Source of the DNA: a virus | DNA: 64,000 bases | IMG/VR virus record: IMGVR_UViG_3300045107_000106 | Span: 43,080-107,079 of that record | Reading direction: 5' to 3' (one strand) | Part shown: piece after piece, positions 8,086 through 24,363 of the stretch | Layout of the letters: each line of letters starts with the position of its first letter | Numbering within the stretch: position 1 is the first letter of the stretch | The notes under the pieces: generated by a model | Seen by the model: only the letters and a program-made list of their open reading frames with translations | What the model was told of the DNA's origin: nothing | Database searches by the model: none | Program-made: the position numbers and the translations under genes

Positions 8086-8114
8086 AGAAATTCGGCTAGG
8101 AAGCCGATACAATG

Positions 8115-8148
8115 GGCACGGGCGAAGATGCCCGTGCCTGTTTTGTTT
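8115..8148 (+). terminator. Rho-independent terminator after the SPFH gene
   Basis: A 9-bp stem (GGCACGGGC/GCCCGTGCC), loop GAAGAT, followed by TGTTTTGTTT. Confidence 0.85.
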
Positions 8149-8168
8149 CCAAACCAGGGAAGGTTAAC

Positions 8169-9539
8169 ATGTCGAATATGAAGCACCCCATCATGGGGTA
8201 CGAGAACCTGCACCGCCACTCCGAGTACAGTCTGCTGGACGGGTTCGCAAAGGTCGGCGAGTACGCCGCCTACTCCAAAGAGGCAAACCAGCGTTACCTC
8301 TGCATCACCGACCACGGCGTCATGGGGGCCGTTCCGCAGCAGGTCGGCGAGTCCGAAAAGCACGGCCTGAAGCCCATCTTCGGCATCGAGTTCTACATCA
8401 ACCCGATGCAGCCCAAGTCCGAGTACCGTGAGCAGAACGCCGAATTCCGTAAGGGGTTGGGCACCGAGGAAGAACAGAAGCGGTTCGACAAGAGTCACCA
8501 CCTGCTCGGCATCGCCCGCACCAACCAGGGCTACACCAACCTCGTGCGGCTGAGTACCTGGGCCTGGGTTCACGGCTACTACCGTCGGCCCCGCATCAAC
8601 CACGACATCCTGAATCAGTACAAAGAAGGGATCATCTTCACGAGTACCTGTGCCAACAGTGAAATCGCCAACGCCTTCTTCGACCACGGCGAGGAAGCGG
8701 GGATGGCGAAGGTGCAGCAGTACATCGACTTCTTCGGGAAAGAGAACTTCTTCCTCGAACTGATGATGCTCGACTTCAAGATGCAGAAGCCCTACGACGC
8801 CTTCCTGCTACGGGCGATGGATCGGTTCGGCCTGCAAGTCCTGCTCTCCACCGACTGCCACTACTGCAAGAAGGAACACGCCCTGAACCAGCGGATGATG
8901 CTCATGGTTCAGACGGGCCGGACCATGCAGGAGATCGAAGCCCTCGTCGCTTCGGGTGCGGCCGACGACCTGTTCGAGCTTCAGGACACGAACCTGTGGA
9001 TGAAGACCGAAGATGAGATGAACCAGATGTGGGAGGAGAAGTACCAGGACACCATCGACTACGAAATCTTCAAGTGTGCGAAGGCGAACACGGTGAAGGT
9101 GTGCGAGATGTGTGCCGGGGTGCAGATCGACCGGGGCATCAAGCTGCCGATTGAGGAAGACGAAAAGAAGCAGTTGATGAAGTTGATCCGGGAGGGCGTG
9201 GACCGGCGGAAGGTGCCGATGACCCGCCAGTACCTTGACCGAATCAAGGAAGAGTACCAACTGATCTGTGACAAGGGGTTCGCCTCGTACTTCCTGATTC
9301 AGAAGAAGATGGTGGATGAGGCGTTGCGGGTGTGCCCGGAGATTTACGGGTTTCAGGACTCGTCGATGGCCCGAGGGCCGGGGCGGGGGTCAGTAGGCGG
9401 CTCGCTGGTCGCCTACTGTCTGGACATTCACGATCTCGATCCGATCAAGCACGGGCTGCTGTTCTCTCGGTTCCTCAGCCCGGCTCGTGGTGGTAAGCAG
9501 ATGAAAACTCGCTTCTCGCTTAGCCCCTGCGGCGGTTAA
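8169..9539 (+). CDS. dnaE: DNA polymerase III alpha subunit, N-terminal half (PHP domain and start of palm)
   Basis: A 456-residue protein holding the first part of a C-family polymerase. The PHP domain has intact metal-ligand motifs: HRH at 15-17, TDHG at 47-50, GIEFY at about 72-76, and STDCHY near 225. The palm motif GPGRGS at 403-408 continues into SLVAYCLDIHDLDPI and GLLFSRFLSPARGG. The protein then stops after a short unrelated tail (KQMKTRFSLSPCGG), just before the place where the catalytic PDxDxD motif would follow. That motif is in the separate gene at 21703. ATG 8169 is chosen because AGGGAAGG stands in front of it; an ATG at 8112 precedes the terminator. No intein-like sequence is seen at the end. 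The 3' end overlaps a convergent gene by 20 bases. Confidence 0.92.
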   Translation: MSNMKHPIMGYENLHRHSEYSLLDGFAKVGEYAAYSKEANQRYLCITDHGVMGAVPQQVGESEKHGLKPIFGIEFYINPMQPKSEYREQNAEFRKGLGTEEEQKRFDKSHHLLGIARTNQGYTNLVRLSTWAWVHGYYRRPRINHDILNQYKEGIIFTSTCANSEIANAFFDHGEEAGMAKVQQYIDFFGKENFFLELMMLDFKMQKPYDAFLLRAMDRFGLQVLLSTDCHYCKKEHALNQRMMLMVQTGRTMQEIEALVASGAADDLFELQDTNLWMKTEDEMNQMWEEKYQDTIDYEIFKCAKANTVKVCEMCAGVQIDRGIKLPIEEDEKKQLMKLIREGVDRRKVPMTRQYLDRIKEEYQLICDKGFASYFLIQKKMVDEALRVCPEIYGFQDSSMARGPGRGSVGGSLVAYCLDIHDLDPIKHGLLFSRFLSPARGGKQMKTRFSLSPCGG

Positions 9540-11046: not shown

Positions 11047-11349
11047 ATGCGATTAGTAAAACTGCTGCTCGTTCCGGTCCTGGCCCTCTGTCTGACGGGC
11101 TGTGGCGGGTGCCGGGAGCGGCCGAAAGAGGAGCAAGAAGAGAAGCAGCGGCAGTACGTCCCCATCCTGGTGTGCGAAAAGGACGGGGTGCGGGTGTACA
11201 AGGTGTACGACTCGACCGAAGGCGGCACGAGCTACATCTACTTCACCGTGCCCGTCGGGACGACGCACTGGACGACCGAGGACAGCGAAGGTAACGTGAC
11301 CCACCACCAAGTTGCCGGTCCGCAGACCGGGGCACCCAAGAAGAAGTGA
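11047..11349 (+). CDS. Putative lipoprotein
   Basis: A 100-residue protein. It has a lipoprotein signal peptide (MRLVKLLLVPVLALCLTGCG; lipobox LTGC, cysteine at 19) followed by a charged, Gln/Glu-rich linker and a small strand-rich domain (VCEKDGVRVYKVYDS, SYIYFTVPVG). AAAGGAGG stands just upstream of the chosen ATG. Export and lipid attachment are inferred from the signal. Phage lipoproteins often act in superinfection exclusion or lysis, but nothing here decides between them. It starts a plus-strand run that continues to the ADP-ribosylglycohydrolase. Confidence 0.75.
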   Translation: MRLVKLLLVPVLALCLTGCGGCRERPKEEQEEKQRQYVPILVCEKDGVRVYKVYDSTEGGTSYIYFTVPVGTTHWTTEDSEGNVTHHQVAGPQTGAPKKK

Positions 11350-11356
11350 GGACGCC

Positions 11357-11494
11357 ATGCGGTATCACATCTACGTCTGGTCGGAAGAGGGTGATATCCG
11401 GTACTGTAAGTCGGTGAACACGAAGGAGTCGGTGGATGCCCTCCTCTCGGAACTCCGAAGCATCGGCTTCGGGTGCGAATACCTCGCTTGGTAA
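11357..11494 (+). CDS. Very small hypothetical protein
   Basis: A 45-residue protein (MRYHIYVWSEEGDIRYCKSV and onward) starting 8 bases after the lipoprotein stop with GAGGA in front. The pattern of an initial strand (YHIYVW) then a helix (SVDALLSELRSIG) suggests a small alpha/beta fold. No family is recognised. Confidence 0.6.
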   Translation: MRYHIYVWSEEGDIRYCKSVNTKESVDALLSELRSIGFGCEYLAW

Positions 11495-11506
11495 AGGACA
11501 ACTCTC

Positions 11507-12388
11507 ATGATGCTGGAACTCGCAGTCGCCGACGCCTACGGGGCATGTTTTGAAACCCTGTCGGCAAAGGACATCGGCGACACGAACGACCTGTCCTACC
11601 ACAAGCGACTCCAGCCGTCGATCATCAAGCGGGGTAAGTACACCGACGACGCCCAGATGAGCATCGGCGTGGCCGAAGCTATTCTGGAACGGGACGAGTG
11701 GACGAAGCCCTACCTCGCCCAGAAGTTCGTCGATGTCTTCCGCCGTGACCCCCGACGGGGCTACACCGGCCCGTTCTTCAACATCTTGACCGAGTGCCAG
11801 ACCGGCGGCGACCTTCTCTCGAAAGTGGACGGCAAGAGCCGCAAGGGCGGCGGCTGCATGAGGGCCGGGCCGTGCGGCCTCTACCCGACGCTGGAAGAGG
11901 TTCAGGAACGGGCCGTCGAGCAGGCGAAGATCACCCACAACTCTGTCGTCGGCGTCATGAGTGCCGCTGCTGCGGCGTTCATGGTTCACTACTTCGCCTA
12001 CGATTTGGGAGAGAAAGCCGACCTACGGGAATGGCTGCACAACAACAACTTCCCGTCGAAAGTCACCGGGGCTATCGACGACCCGGAGGGCGAGTTCCGT
12101 GTTTGGGAACCCGGCCAGAAGGTCGGCAACTTCGGCTGGAGTGTCGTCCTGGCTGCTCTCGCCGCCATCGAGCGGACCGATTCCCTGGCCGAGTGCCTGA
12201 AGCAGTGCGTGGCCTGGGGCGGCGACACGGACACGGTGGCGACCGTCGCCCTGGCTGCGGCGTCCTGGTCGAAGGAGATGAAGAAGGACATGCCGCAGGG
12301 ACTTGTTGACATGTTGGAGAACGGCAGGTATGGTAGGGACTACCTGATCGAGTTGGATAACAAACTGAAGGCCAAGTTCGGCCTGTAA
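11507..12388 (+). CDS. ADP-ribosylglycohydrolase (DraG/ARH family)
   Basis: A 293-residue protein of the ADP-ribosyl-(dinitrogenase reductase) hydrolase family. These enzymes remove ADP-ribose from arginine or other acceptors using a two-metal centre. The first metal motif, YTDDAQMSIG, is at about residues 45-54 and the second, GGDTDTVA, at about 235-242; both are intact. Inner helices (HNSVVGVMSAAAAAFMVH, WSVVLAALAAIERT) also fit. The gene follows small unknown genes with a short gap. Likely roles are reversing ADP-ribosylation of host or phage targets, or countering a host ADP-ribosylating defence; neither is shown by the sequence. Confidence 0.88.
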   Translation: MMLELAVADAYGACFETLSAKDIGDTNDLSYHKRLQPSIIKRGKYTDDAQMSIGVAEAILERDEWTKPYLAQKFVDVFRRDPRRGYTGPFFNILTECQTGGDLLSKVDGKSRKGGGCMRAGPCGLYPTLEEVQERAVEQAKITHNSVVGVMSAAAAAFMVHYFAYDLGEKADLREWLHNNNFPSKVTGAIDDPEGEFRVWEPGQKVGNFGWSVVLAALAAIERTDSLAECLKQCVAWGGDTDTVATVALAAASWSKEMKKDMPQGLVDMLENGRYGRDYLIELDNKLKAKFGL

Positions 12389-12400
12389 ACGGAGTCGGCT

Positions 12401-12619
12401 ATGGATGGCCTCAAGAACCTGCTAGTCTACATCTGCCTGTTCACGGGCTTCCCGTTCGCATGGCTCTACGTTAAGCTGTTCTCGTCCCGGCCGAGGCACG
12501 GCGGCTTCCTCGAAAACCTCGGCACCGTCGTCCTGGCGATCTGGATCGGCGTAGCCATGTGGATCGTGGCATTCGTCGCCTTCGCCTGTTTCGGAATCTA
12601 CAAAGCAATCTGCGGGTAA
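12401..12619 (+). CDS. Small two-helix membrane protein
   Basis: A 72-residue protein with two hydrophobic segments (about 6-25, LLVYICLFTGFPFAWLYVKL; about 43-68, VVLAIWIGVAMWIVAFVAFA) joined by a short basic loop (SSRPRHGG). It has the size and topology of small phage membrane proteins, including class II holins, but no lysis genes lie beside it. Start ATG is preceded by CGGAG. Confidence 0.65.
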   Translation: MDGLKNLLVYICLFTGFPFAWLYVKLFSSRPRHGGFLENLGTVVLAIWIGVAMWIVAFVAFACFGIYKAICG

Positions 12620-12622
12620 ACC

Positions 12623-13354
12623 ATGTTCCCTAGCGGCATTAACGAACTGGCGAAGAATGTCCCTCTGCCGAAGTACCAGGAACTCCGCATCCTCCTGATG
12701 CCGATTGTCCTGGGGGACGCCAGCACGAACCCGTACCCCGACTGCAACCCGATGTTGGAAGTGATGGCAGCGGTCCAGCCCCAGCACAAGGGGAAGGTCT
12801 GTTACCTGACTATCGACCAGAAGGGTGTTCCGGCTGGGAAGACGCACCGTCGTGCCGGGCTGCACGTTGACGGCTACCCGTACACCGAAGCCGACAAGCG
12901 GATGCTGGACGGCGGATACATTACCTCTGGCGCTGGCGGCATCTGGGCGGCAAACGCCCACGGCGGCACCTGGGGCGGTGGTGGTGGCTGGGGAGGCGGT
13001 AATTCCGCTCTCTACTGGCACATGGGTAACGGCTTGCTGACGGTTTCGAGCGTCGAGGGCTGTGTCGCCTGGAACCAGGAATTCCCCGGCGAGCCGAAGG
13101 TCGAAGGGGATTGTGAACATCTTCGGGAACACTGCAAGGAGGAGTGTAAGGTCGTACTCAAAGCGAATACCCTCTACTGGATGAGTCCGGGGTGCGTCCA
13201 CGAGTCGCTGCCGCAGCCGGTGGACGTGATCCGCACCTTCGTGCGGCTCTCGCTGCCGTCTAAGTGCGATTGGTACGAGGGTTGTACTCCGAACCCGCTC
13301 GGCGTGAAGCCGACGGGGAAGATCAGCCGCCGTCGCCGCTTCTTGGACGTGTAA
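12623..13354 (+). CDS. Hypothetical protein, possible Fe(II)/2-oxoglutarate oxygenase-like fold
   Basis: A 243-residue protein. A His-x-Asp motif (AGLHVDGYPY, about 74-83), a later histidine (MSPGCVHESLPQ, about 190-201) and a downstream arginine (VIRTFVRLSLPS) follow the spacing order of the cupin-type HxD...H...R iron-binding core of 2OG oxygenases. Between them lies a glycine-rich stretch (GGTWGGGGGWGGGNSALYWH). The match is by motif order only; a cupin without that activity is equally possible. It is the last gene before the tmRNA promoter. Confidence 0.45.
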   Translation: MFPSGINELAKNVPLPKYQELRILLMPIVLGDASTNPYPDCNPMLEVMAAVQPQHKGKVCYLTIDQKGVPAGKTHRRAGLHVDGYPYTEADKRMLDGGYITSGAGGIWAANAHGGTWGGGGGWGGGNSALYWHMGNGLLTVSSVEGCVAWNQEFPGEPKVEGDCEHLREHCKEECKVVLKANTLYWMSPGCVHESLPQPVDVIRTFVRLSLPSKCDWYEGCTPNPLGVKPTGKISRRRRFLDV

Positions 13355-13363
13355 TTTTTCTGG

Positions 13364-13391
13364 TTGACAATCACCGAACCGAGGGTATAAA
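13364..13391 (+). promoter_or_regulatory. Sigma70-type promoter of the tmRNA
   Basis: TTGACA at 13364-13369 and TATAAA at 13386-13391 with a 16-base spacer, 12 bases before the mature tmRNA 5' end. The -10 region also reads TATAAATA, the T4 late core, so it might serve both host and late phage polymerase. Confidence 0.8.
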
Positions 13392-13403
13392 TAGGGTGTG
13401 CAT

Positions 13404-13797
13404 GGGGCCGCTCCGGTATCGAACCGGCGTCAACGGCCGAAAGGACTTGCGTAGTGGTTGGTCGGTGGGCCACTTAAAAAAGCCGACTAAGCCTTAACTG
13501 GCGATACTCTCAGAATGGCTGCCTGAGTTGTGCCCTCGCAAGGGGGCACCGCAATAGCGGCCAAATGAGTCTTCGGACTCAGGGACTCACAGAAGCGATG
13601 CTCCAAGCGTCTGTGTTTCTCACGCCAAAAAGGAGACGAAGCCTAGTGAGTGTCGGTTGTAGCTAGGCGGGTCGCTAACCGAGAATCCCGGTGGTTTTGC
13701 CAGTTGTACGGCACCGTGGATTATCAACAACTGGATACACGCATAAACGCCTTCGGAAGTTCGCTTGGTCACAGGGGTTCGACTCCCCTCGGCTCCA
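13404..13797 (+). ncRNA. ssrA: Transfer-messenger RNA (tmRNA)
   Basis: The 394-base RNA has a tRNA-like acceptor stem (GGGGCCG at 13404-13410 pairing with CGGCTCC at 13790-13796, one G-T pair). It also has a T arm with the TTCGACT loop closed by AGGGG/CCCCT at 13773-13789. The conserved AAAAAGCCG segment lies just before the tag reading frame. The tag starts at GGC 13500 and reads GDTLRMAA followed by TGA (13524-13526); an A at position -4 of the resume codon fits the known rule. CCA is not encoded (the DNA reads CTA after the discriminator A). tmRNA with SmpB rescues stalled ribosomes and adds a degradation tag. No smpB is visible in the window, so host SmpB is presumably used. Confidence 0.93.
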
Positions 13798-13802
13798 CTA
13801 AG

Positions 13803-13848
13803 AAAACCCTCCGGCTCCACTGAAAAGTGGCCGGAGGGTTTCTCTTTT
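13803..13848 (+). terminator. Rho-independent terminator of the tmRNA
   Basis: A long stem formed by AAACCCTCCGGC and its complement with an inner CCACT/AGTGG stem and GAAA loop, followed by TTTCTCTTTT. Confidence 0.85.
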
Positions 13849-13853
13849 AGTGC

Positions 13854-14414
13854 ATGTCTACAACACAAGTCACCTGTGCCCACTGCGGCACGTCATTCTC
13901 CAAACGCACAGCAGAAGTTAATCGCTCAGTCAAGCTGGGCCGTAAACACTACTGCAATCGTTCTTGCATGGGGAAAGACCAACTCGACCACATGCCGTTA
14001 GTAAAGCGTGCCAATGCCCAGCACCTTCGAGGCCACGAGAGCAACCGCAAAGACGAGTACAGCCCGTTCCGCTGGCACTTCCGCAATGCGATCCGCCGCT
14101 CACAAGAGTCGGATCGCAAAGAATGCACGATCACCCTCGATGATCTGAAGAAGCAGTGGGACGACCAGAAAGGAAAGTGCCCGTACACTGGCTGGGAACT
14201 AAAGAACCTGCCAGATACCAACACCAAGAAGCAGCTTCCTCTTACACCAGACCGTGCGAGCCTGGACCGAAAGGATTCGTCAAAGGGATACGTCCCCGGC
14301 AACATCCAGTTCGTCTCGACGATGGCGAACTACGCCAAAAACCGCTGGGGAGATCAAGAGCTATTCGAGTTCTGTGCTGCGGTTTACAAGGGGCATGTTT
14401 CGGGTAAAATGTAG
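13854..14414 (+). CDS. HNH-type homing endonuclease candidate
   Basis: A 186-residue protein. The N-terminus has a zinc-ribbon-like cluster (VTCAHCGTSFSKR, HYCNRSCMGK; about 6-42). The C-terminal part has a motif set common in phage HNH-fold nucleases: KCPYTGWEL, then PDRASLDRKDSSKGY and PGNIQFVSTMANYAKN at about 115-165. Here LDRKDSSKGY takes the place of the central H-N segment. It starts 6 bases after the tmRNA terminator. Codon choice is less biased and more AT-containing than in the flanking genes, as expected for a mobile insertion. Its target is unknown; the nearby tmRNA is an obvious candidate. Confidence 0.72.
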   Translation: MSTTQVTCAHCGTSFSKRTAEVNRSVKLGRKHYCNRSCMGKDQLDHMPLVKRANAQHLRGHESNRKDEYSPFRWHFRNAIRRSQESDRKECTITLDDLKKQWDDQKGKCPYTGWELKNLPDTNTKKQLPLTPDRASLDRKDSSKGYVPGNIQFVSTMANYAKNRWGDQELFEFCAAVYKGHVSGKM

Positions 14415-21702: not shown

Positions 21703-24363
21703 ATGAAGGAACGTGACGAACTGGTAGCCCTGCTGGAAGCGGCTTTGGACGCAAAGGGCTTACGGAACGATCAGTACACAAATCGACTGGCTCTCGAACT
21801 GAAAGAACTCGACGTTCTTGAAGAACACGAATACTTTCTCAAGCTGCACAAAGAGGGGAAGAAGTACCCTGAGAACGAGAACAACCTTCTCGTCCCATAT
21901 CTGCTCGACCTGTGCCCCGACTTCGACATCAACCGGGAACCCGCCTACAACCAGGGCGAGTTCCCCGACATCGACATGGACTACCTGCCGCTCGTCCGTG
22001 ACCACTTGAAGAACGAGTGGGCGGTGAAGGAGTACGGCCGGGATTACGTCTGCTCCATCGGCACCTACGGCACCCTGGGCATCAAGGCAGCCATGCTCGA
22101 CATGGCCCGTGTCCACGGCGTCCCGAAGGACGAAGTGCAGATGGTTACGAAACAGGTCGAAGACAAGGACGACGAAGGCGAGCCGATGGAGTGGGACAAG
22201 GCTCTCGAACTCTACGCCGACTTCAAGGCGTTCTGCGAGCGGCACCCGGACGTGGCCGCAGCCGCCAAGATGATGCTGGACCGGAACAAATCGGGCGGCG
22301 TCCACGCCGGGGGACTCATCATCTCCTCCAAGCCGATCCAAGACTTCGTGCCGCTCGAAGTGCGGTCAGTGAAGAAGGAGAACAAGCACGGCGTCCTCGT
22401 CTCGGCGTGGTGCGAGGGGCAGGCCACCCAGGACTTGCAGCCGGTCGGGCTGGTGAAGTTCGACTTGCTGGTGGTGGACGGGTTGATGCAGATCGCCCAG
22501 GCGTGCGAACTCATCCGCCAGCGGCACGGCATCGAGCGGATCAACGCCCTGCCGGGCGGGCGGAACTGGAGCGACACGGCCTACCTCAACGACCCGAAGG
22601 CGTTGGCGATGGCGAACAAGGCCGACCTGAAGTGCGTGTTCCAGTTCGGGTCGGACGGCATCCGGGCGATGGTCAAGCGGGGCGGCGTGACGAGCTTCGA
22701 CGACCTGATGGCGTACTCGGCCCTCTACCGCCCCGGCCCGCTGAACATGGGGATGGATAAGCACTACTGCGACCGGAAGAAGGGGATCGAGCAGTGGAGC
22801 ATCCACCCGCTGCTCATGCCGATCCTGGGGCGGACTTACGGGGTTCTTGTTTACCAAGAGCAGTGTATGCAAGTCCTCCACACGGTAGGACTCATCCCGC
22901 TCATTCACTGCGAGAAGGTCCGCAAGGCCATCTCGAAGAAGAAGATCGCCCTGTTCGCCAAGTACAAGGACATGTTCATTACGAACGGTCAGAAGGTACT
23001 CGGCGAGAGCGAGGAGTTCGTCCGTGACCTGTGGGACCAGATCGAGGCGTTCGCCGACTACGGCTTCAACGCCAGCCACAGTTGTGCGTACACCTACATC
23101 TCCTCCCGGCAGTTGTGGCTCAAGGCCCACTACCCGCTGGAGTATTACACTGCGGTCCTGATGTGCGAAGACCAGTCGGACAAGATTAAGGAGATCAAGC
23201 AGGACGCCCGGAAGCACGGCATCGAAGTCAAGCCGGTGCATATCAACCACAGCCGGGAACTGTTCCGCATCGTGGACAACGACATCTACTACGGGTTCAG
23301 TAACCTGAAGAAAGTCGGCGAGGCGGTGGCGAAGCGGATCGTGGCGGGGCAACCCTACGCCTCGTTCGAGGACTTCCTGCAACGGTTCGGGACCGACATG
23401 CAGGTGTTGAAGCCGCTCATCTCCCTCGGCGTGTTCGAGGAGAAGGTGGACCGGATCACGCTGTACAAGTTCTACGACAAGTACAGCGATTGGCTCAAGA
23501 AGTGTAAGAGCCGGGACAAGCGGTTCGAGGAGAGCCAAGCCAAGTACGAAACCGAACTCCGGGAACTGCTGAAGCAGTACGGGGCGGACGAGAAGGAAGT
23601 CGAGGCGATGGCCCGGTTCGACGATGATGTCATCAGTGAATGGGAAGCCCGGTTCGGCAACATCAAGGTCGAACAGCAGTACAAGTACAAGGGCGAGATG
23701 CGGACCCGTGAAGTGTCCGTGGTCAAGTTCATGACCGACATCCACGGGCGGCGGAACAAGGGCGTGCGAGGCCAGGAGGAGAAGACCCGGCTCGACCAAG
23801 AGGAACCGCCGACCCTGGCGACCTTCAACGCTAAGACGTGGCCGCTGGAGCAGGCGATCATCGAACTGCTCTCCGACGAGAAGGCAGCCGAACAGGAATA
23901 CTACGGCTTCCAGTGGGTACACGACCTGGAAGAAAGCCCCGACTACGAAGGGTTCACCATCGACCGCTTCACCGAGGTTGTGGCGAACCGGAAGGAGCCG
24001 AGGGGTGCCATCGAGGTTAAGGTACTCCAGGTGACGAAGCGGGAGTTCAAGACCGGCACCATCGCCTACGACGTGAAGGTGGAAGACGCCAACGGCAAGG
24101 TGGTGATCGTCCGGTTCTGGAGCGACGACTACACCCGGTTCCAAGAGGAGATCACGCCCGGTGCGCTCCTACGGCTGCACGTCAAGCCGCCGGAAGGGTT
24201 CCCGAGCTATTCCTTCTGGGCACCGCCGAAGCACCTGCGGCACCGGCTTGTCCCGAAGGATAAGAGCCTGGACGACCGGCTGTACGTCCTGACGCCGGGG
24301 GCGAAGAAGGTTGTCGTGCAAGAGGAGAAACCGGAAGAGGGATTCGAACTGATGGAAGCCTGA
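21703..24363 (+). CDS. dnaE: DNA polymerase III alpha subunit, C-terminal catalytic half
   Basis: An 886-residue protein that continues the polymerase interrupted at 9539. The first about 85 residues (MKERDELVALLEAALDAKGL and onward) have no clear counterpart in E. coli DnaE. Catalytic PDIDMD is at 88-93, and the third acidic residue lies in GLVKFDLLVVDGL at about 250. Fingers motifs include SALYRPGPLNMGM, YQEQCMQVL, KVRKAISKK, FADYGFNASHSCAYTYIS and RQLWLKAHYPLEYY. The C-terminus holds a helix-hairpin-helix-like region (FSNLKKVGEAVAKRI) and an OB-fold domain (about 770-850). It has a ribosome binding site (TAGGAGA), so it is translated independently. No intein C-fragment is seen. Both halves together would make a complete enzyme. 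Confidence 0.95.
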   Translation: MKERDELVALLEAALDAKGLRNDQYTNRLALELKELDVLEEHEYFLKLHKEGKKYPENENNLLVPYLLDLCPDFDINREPAYNQGEFPDIDMDYLPLVRDHLKNEWAVKEYGRDYVCSIGTYGTLGIKAAMLDMARVHGVPKDEVQMVTKQVEDKDDEGEPMEWDKALELYADFKAFCERHPDVAAAAKMMLDRNKSGGVHAGGLIISSKPIQDFVPLEVRSVKKENKHGVLVSAWCEGQATQDLQPVGLVKFDLLVVDGLMQIAQACELIRQRHGIERINALPGGRNWSDTAYLNDPKALAMANKADLKCVFQFGSDGIRAMVKRGGVTSFDDLMAYSALYRPGPLNMGMDKHYCDRKKGIEQWSIHPLLMPILGRTYGVLVYQEQCMQVLHTVGLIPLIHCEKVRKAISKKKIALFAKYKDMFITNGQKVLGESEEFVRDLWDQIEAFADYGFNASHSCAYTYISSRQLWLKAHYPLEYYTAVLMCEDQSDKIKEIKQDARKHGIEVKPVHINHSRELFRIVDNDIYYGFSNLKKVGEAVAKRIVAGQPYASFEDFLQRFGTDMQVLKPLISLGVFEEKVDRITLYKFYDKYSDWLKKCKSRDKRFEESQAKYETELRELLKQYGADEKEVEAMARFDDDVISEWEARFGNIKVEQQYKYKGEMRTREVSVVKFMTDIHGRRNKGVRGQEEKTRLDQEEPPTLATFNAKTWPLEQAIIELLSDEKAAEQEYYGFQWVHDLEESPDYEGFTIDRFTEVVANRKEPRGAIEVKVLQVTKREFKTGTIAYDVKVEDANGKVVIVRFWSDDYTRFQEEITPGALLRLHVKPPEGFPSYSFWAPPKHLRHRLVPKDKSLDDRLYVLTPGAKKVVVQEEKPEEGFELMEA

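Follow-up and report, generated by a model that had tools for sequence, protein, structure and literature searches.

The tmRNA gene and its flanking signals

The stretch of DNA analysed here (the window, 64,000 nucleotides) takes up the end of a linear IMG/VR record of 107,079 bp, which is probably a fragment of a very large phage, and carries on its plus strand a one-piece tmRNA gene (ssrA, 13404-13800) called by both ARAGORN and RF00023, in which CTA replaces CCA. A covariance-model search had been proposed as a check on the original prediction of a phage tmRNA, and the Rfam model RF00023 matches 13404-13800 (+) over its full length (model positions 1-374) with 79.4 bits (E 3.5e-29), above the curated cut-off of 47 bits. 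ARAGORN reports a single tmRNA in the window (13404-13798) with the tag GDTLRMAA*. Of the features by which RF00023 members are recognised, a tRNA-like domain, pseudoknot 1 (PK1), an A at -4 and a stop-terminated tag frame are present.

In the tRNA-like domain the acceptor stem is formed by GGGGCCG (13404-13410, +) and CGGCTCC (13790-13796, +) and includes the G3·U70 alanine identity pair; this position-3 G·U pair (G-T in the DNA) is invariant among the phage tmRNAs compared (6/6). The T arm (AGGGG-TTCGACT-CCCCT, 13773-13789, +) is supported by the RF00023 match and by the alignment of phage tmRNAs. Since the discriminator A (13797) precedes CTA, CCA is not encoded. The tag frame GDTLRMAA (13500-13526, +) opens at the resume codon GGC (13500) and closes at TGA (13524-13526), and the base at -4 is A (13496), a position at which mutation abolishes the activity of E. 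coli tmRNA (PMC2481249). Acceptor stem, T arm, unencoded CCA, resume codon with its A and tag sequence all stand as originally predicted.

The consensus promoter and strong terminator that had been proposed to frame the gene were likewise recovered, the former as a promoter-like site. This site (13364-13391, +) lies 12 nt 5' of the tmRNA and consists of TTGACA (13364-13369), a 16-nt spacer and TATAAA (13386-13391), agreeing with 11/12 consensus bases; by a hand estimate that assumes equal base use, the chance of such a match within the 40 upstream bases is about 3 in 10,000. A promoter scan overlooked the site, since the scan accepts nothing but T in the final -10 position. The tmRNAs of LR756511 and of locus L139 likewise have TTGACA sites in front of them. 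Downstream, an intrinsic terminator (13800-13847, +) forms a hairpin at 13800-13846 of -29.5 kcal/mol (z -5.98), and 0/200 shuffles were equally stable. The terminator stem contains, at 13812-13821, an exact repeat of the 10 bases that end the tmRNA gene (CGGCTCCACT, 13790-13799), which may reflect a duplication, an attachment-site remnant or chance.

Pseudoknot 1 (13453-13489, +) is built from AGTGG/CCACT (13453-57 with 13470-74) interleaved with TGGTCGG/CCGACTA (13459-65 with 13483-89). Both stems are completely paired in all phage and bacterial sequences compared, while the letters differ. The PK1 strands were paired by hand in each sequence, the MAFFT alignment having misplaced stem 2, and when these hand-picked strands were dealt to partners at random, full pairing was reached in 0/20,000 and 1/20,000 trials. 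Candidate distal stems were also found in the window tmRNA (13641/13663 with 13653/13677; 13689/13712 with 13700/13727), but pseudoknots 2-4 are not claimed because 43/300 shuffles reached the number of interleaved stems that a blind count gave. The distal pseudoknots are unlike those of the relatives, which we count against the explanation favoured below.

A conserved tmRNA locus in huge phages

The record is related to the huge phages LR756511 and G005. It encodes DnaE, DnaB, a UvsX-like recombinase, SbcC, a class II ribonucleotide reductase and CTP synthase, and no structural genes were found among its scanned ORFs. For both DnaE (42% identity) and CTP synthase (65%) the nearest phage record is LR756511, a 595-kb uncultured phage that encodes a terminase, and further relatives in IMG/VR are L014 (27.7 kb), G003 (L029, 76.9 kb), G004 (L030, 27.7 kb) and G005 (L031, 527 kb). 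Neither the tmRNA nor the window's first 24 kb found a match when searched as DNA against 50,697 phage records, and no relatives were found with the protein encoded just upstream of the tmRNA (12623-13354) as query.

In the window and its five relatives (6/6 records) a tmRNA gene lies about 3-12 kb upstream of the C-terminal part of dnaE on the same strand. The six tmRNAs share 49-74% identity, and the tag frame of the window aligns with the tags of the other five. ARAGORN reads these as GETQYALAA (L014), GKSDLAMAA (L030) and ANPEFAMAA (LR756511), as it does GDTLRMAA in the window, while VEAPLQMAA (G005) and GNTLALAA (G003) were read by eye from tmRNAs that ARAGORN does not report. That five related phage records have this gene in the corresponding place argues that the window tmRNA is not a chance occurrence. 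Taken with the 49-74% identity and the compensatory changes in PK1, it also points to a gene under selection, one that on these comparisons appears to be maintained and not captured in passing.

Recent capture of a host ssrA gene, for instance by imprecise prophage excision, with the copy now decaying or neutral, would be a possible source of such a gene, since integration often takes place in tmRNA genes and phages have been suggested to acquire ssrA through imprecise prophage excision (PMC9004378); the repeat of the tmRNA end within the terminator is also compatible with it. However, the fold and frame are complete, the gene has a promoter-like site and terminator of its own, the locus with its compensatory changes is shared by phages as divergent as described above, and strict tmRNA patterns found no close copy in the viral and bacterial collections, matches appearing only when the patterns were loosened. 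We consider recent capture highly improbable.

The relatives also bear on the possibility that the window RNA inhibits host trans-translation or serves as a decoy for it, in the manner of the tmRNA of phage DS6A, which has a tRNA-like domain only. RNAs of the DS6A type inhibit host tmRNA (PMC4131195; PMC11915505), and LR756511 carries, in addition to a full tmRNA (341278-341632), a second tmRNA of 137 nt with a tRNA-like domain and no tag frame (LR756511.1 2250-2386; L007 1501-1637), which scores 50.4 bits with RF00023, is not called by ARAGORN and resembles the DS6A form. The window RNA, on the other hand, has an intact tag frame, the A at -4 and PK1, all superfluous for a decoy, and the window record holds no second tmRNA copy, leaving this the least probable of the readings weighed here.

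Directly downstream of the tmRNA, and outside the gene, lies an endonuclease VII/HNH-like ORF (13854-14414, +; phrog_1035, phrog_3322). Such a gene occupies this position in 4/6 phages, its homologues lying beside the tmRNA at L014 955-1482, L138 1417-884 and L140 1167-610, and it may encode a homing endonuclease associated with this locus.

The DNA polymerase III alpha gene near the tmRNA is itself split at a point in the palm domain, giving two genes (8112-9539 and 21703-24363) that are separated by 12 kb and flank the tmRNA. The gene for the N-terminal part is also found in L030, while dnaE of LR756511 is one fused gene. An N-terminal extension of about 85 aa on the C-terminal product is common to the window, L014, L029, L030 and L031 and resembles a degenerate palm segment that lacks GPGRGS. 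A split intein was considered as the cause of the division and rejected, no intein motif being seen at the break on inspection by eye. In L014 an intein does lie within the C-terminal dnaE gene (about 11323-12494), after GFNKS.

The tag and its expected recognition by ClpXP

The tag had been described as short and unusual. It is short, with 8 codons (as in G003) against a commonest length of 10 (PMC11915505), but its MAA ending is not unusual: MAA terminates 4/6 tags in the phage clade and 24 of the roughly 108 pattern-matched Bacteroidota tags. The latter come from 395 Bacteroidota genomes, taken as the phylum of a Flavobacteriales MAG, where G....YAMAA tags occur in 24 and G....YALAA tags in 84, and where a reversed control pattern had no match; GNTSYAMAA at the bacterial locus L149 is of the same kind. 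A literature search for YAMAA-type tags found nothing relevant. The MAA ending is best read as an ordinary alternative to LAA in Bacteroidota.

It had further been suggested that a tag ending in MAA might be handled differently by ClpXP. One version of this idea is that tagged proteins escape ClpXP or are degraded more slowly, or are directed to a phage-encoded ClpP, and consistent with it the tag is short, R and M stand where the usual YALAA has its -4 and -3 residues, and ClpP-family proteins are encoded by LR756511 and G005. The published specificity of ClpX does not support a special role for MAA. The terminal Ala-Ala is the main determinant, KM rises only modestly when the Leu before it is mutated, and a tag of just five residues, YALAA, is enough for degradation of GFP by ClpXP (PMC7652416). 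Because Ala-Ala dominates recognition and the effect of mutating Leu is modest, Met would be expected to behave much like Leu, and the window tag keeps the terminal Ala-Ala-COO- of the degron. Together with the frequency of MAA among Bacteroidota tags and the failure to find a ClpP in the window record, this makes an altered fate of tagged proteins very unlikely.

Host and SmpB

A search with the resume context CCTTAAC-N-GGC-RA gave 13 matching bacterial contigs, all but one from Bacteroidota, so that the phage tmRNA is of the Bacteroidota type. A Bacteroidota host is slightly favoured, although the promoter type and the GC content of 57% argue somewhat against it. A TTGACA/TATAAA promoter and 57% GC are atypical of Bacteroidota promoters.

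The original prediction proposed a search for smpB elsewhere in the genome. None was found in the window record, LR756511, G005 or G003, of which the window record, G003 and G005 may be fragments; the same search recovers SmpB in 10 control bacteria. The phages therefore presumably use the SmpB of the host. Some huge phages have been reported to carry SmpB (PMC7162821).

Comparison with known tmRNAs and proposed function

Phage tmRNAs are already well known, and the window gene adds one more. They were found in 402/18,146 phages, counting one- and two-piece forms together (PMC9004378), and are described in mycobacteriophages and phage G (PMC4131195) and in huge phages (PMC7162821). Like the one-piece tmRNAs of Bxz1, Wildcat and Bacillus phage G, the window gene has full tRNA-like and mRNA-like domains with a tag frame in a phage genome, but it belongs to a different phage group with unrelated DNA (0 matches in the search above) and has the tag GDTLRMAA. 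The LR756511 tmRNA shares with it the locus upstream of dnaE, the TTGACA promoter-like site, a terminator and the MAA ending, whereas its overall identity is 49%, its distal pseudoknot region is different, its tag has 9 codons and its genome carries the second, tag-less tmRNA. Bacteroidota tmRNAs (tags GNTQYAMAA, GNTDYALAA, GETSYAMAA) resemble it in the CCTTAAC-N-GGC context, the G(N/D/E)T opening and the MAA/LAA end, and differ in overall sequence (43-48% identity), in their 9-codon tags and in having YA before the last three residues.

What was directly observed is the anatomy of the gene, the covariation of PK1 and a locus that related huge phages have conserved. On this comparative evidence the window gene is very probably a functional phage-encoded tmRNA of the ordinary one-piece form, and the most economical account would be that it carries out trans-translation together with host factors and so keeps ribosomes cycling. 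We infer the following course for expression, charging, tagging, the use of host SmpB and the fate of the tagged proteins. Transcription would be driven by the gene's own sigma-70-like promoter, after which host RNases would trim the RNA and nucleotidyltransferase would add CCA. The G3·U70 pair would direct charging with alanine, and the tmRNA with host SmpB would enter ribosomes stalled on broken mRNA. Ala-GDTLRMAA would then be appended, translation would end at UGA with release of the ribosome, and the tagged protein would pass to ClpXP-type proteases. The benefit to the phage is probably that ribosome recycling is sustained while host transcripts are destroyed. With the window gene, a conserved tmRNA locus becomes known from a lineage of huge phages in which ribosome rescue would be a maintained phage function. 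A broader scheme, in which the whole clade runs a trans-translation system of its own with a fast-changing tag, a ClpP encoded by some of the phages and, in a single member, a separate tag-less tmRNA that blocks that of the host while the full phage tmRNA stays active, seems to us a long shot.

Variant tmRNAs in other viral records

Two forms among the relatives are more interesting than the window gene itself, the tag-less tmRNA of LR756511 and the tmRNA of G003 (L140, IMG/VR 3300031885_000006, about 71.4-71.9 kb). The T loop of the latter holds a group I intron of approximately 230 nt (RF00028, 74.2 bits; extent approximate). The portion consulted of PMC11915505 describes tmRNA genes with a T-loop group I intron from bacteria and makes no mention of this form in a phage. 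Another viral contig (L024, 6693-7010) carries a permuted two-piece tmRNA with the 8-residue tag ANRLAMAA.
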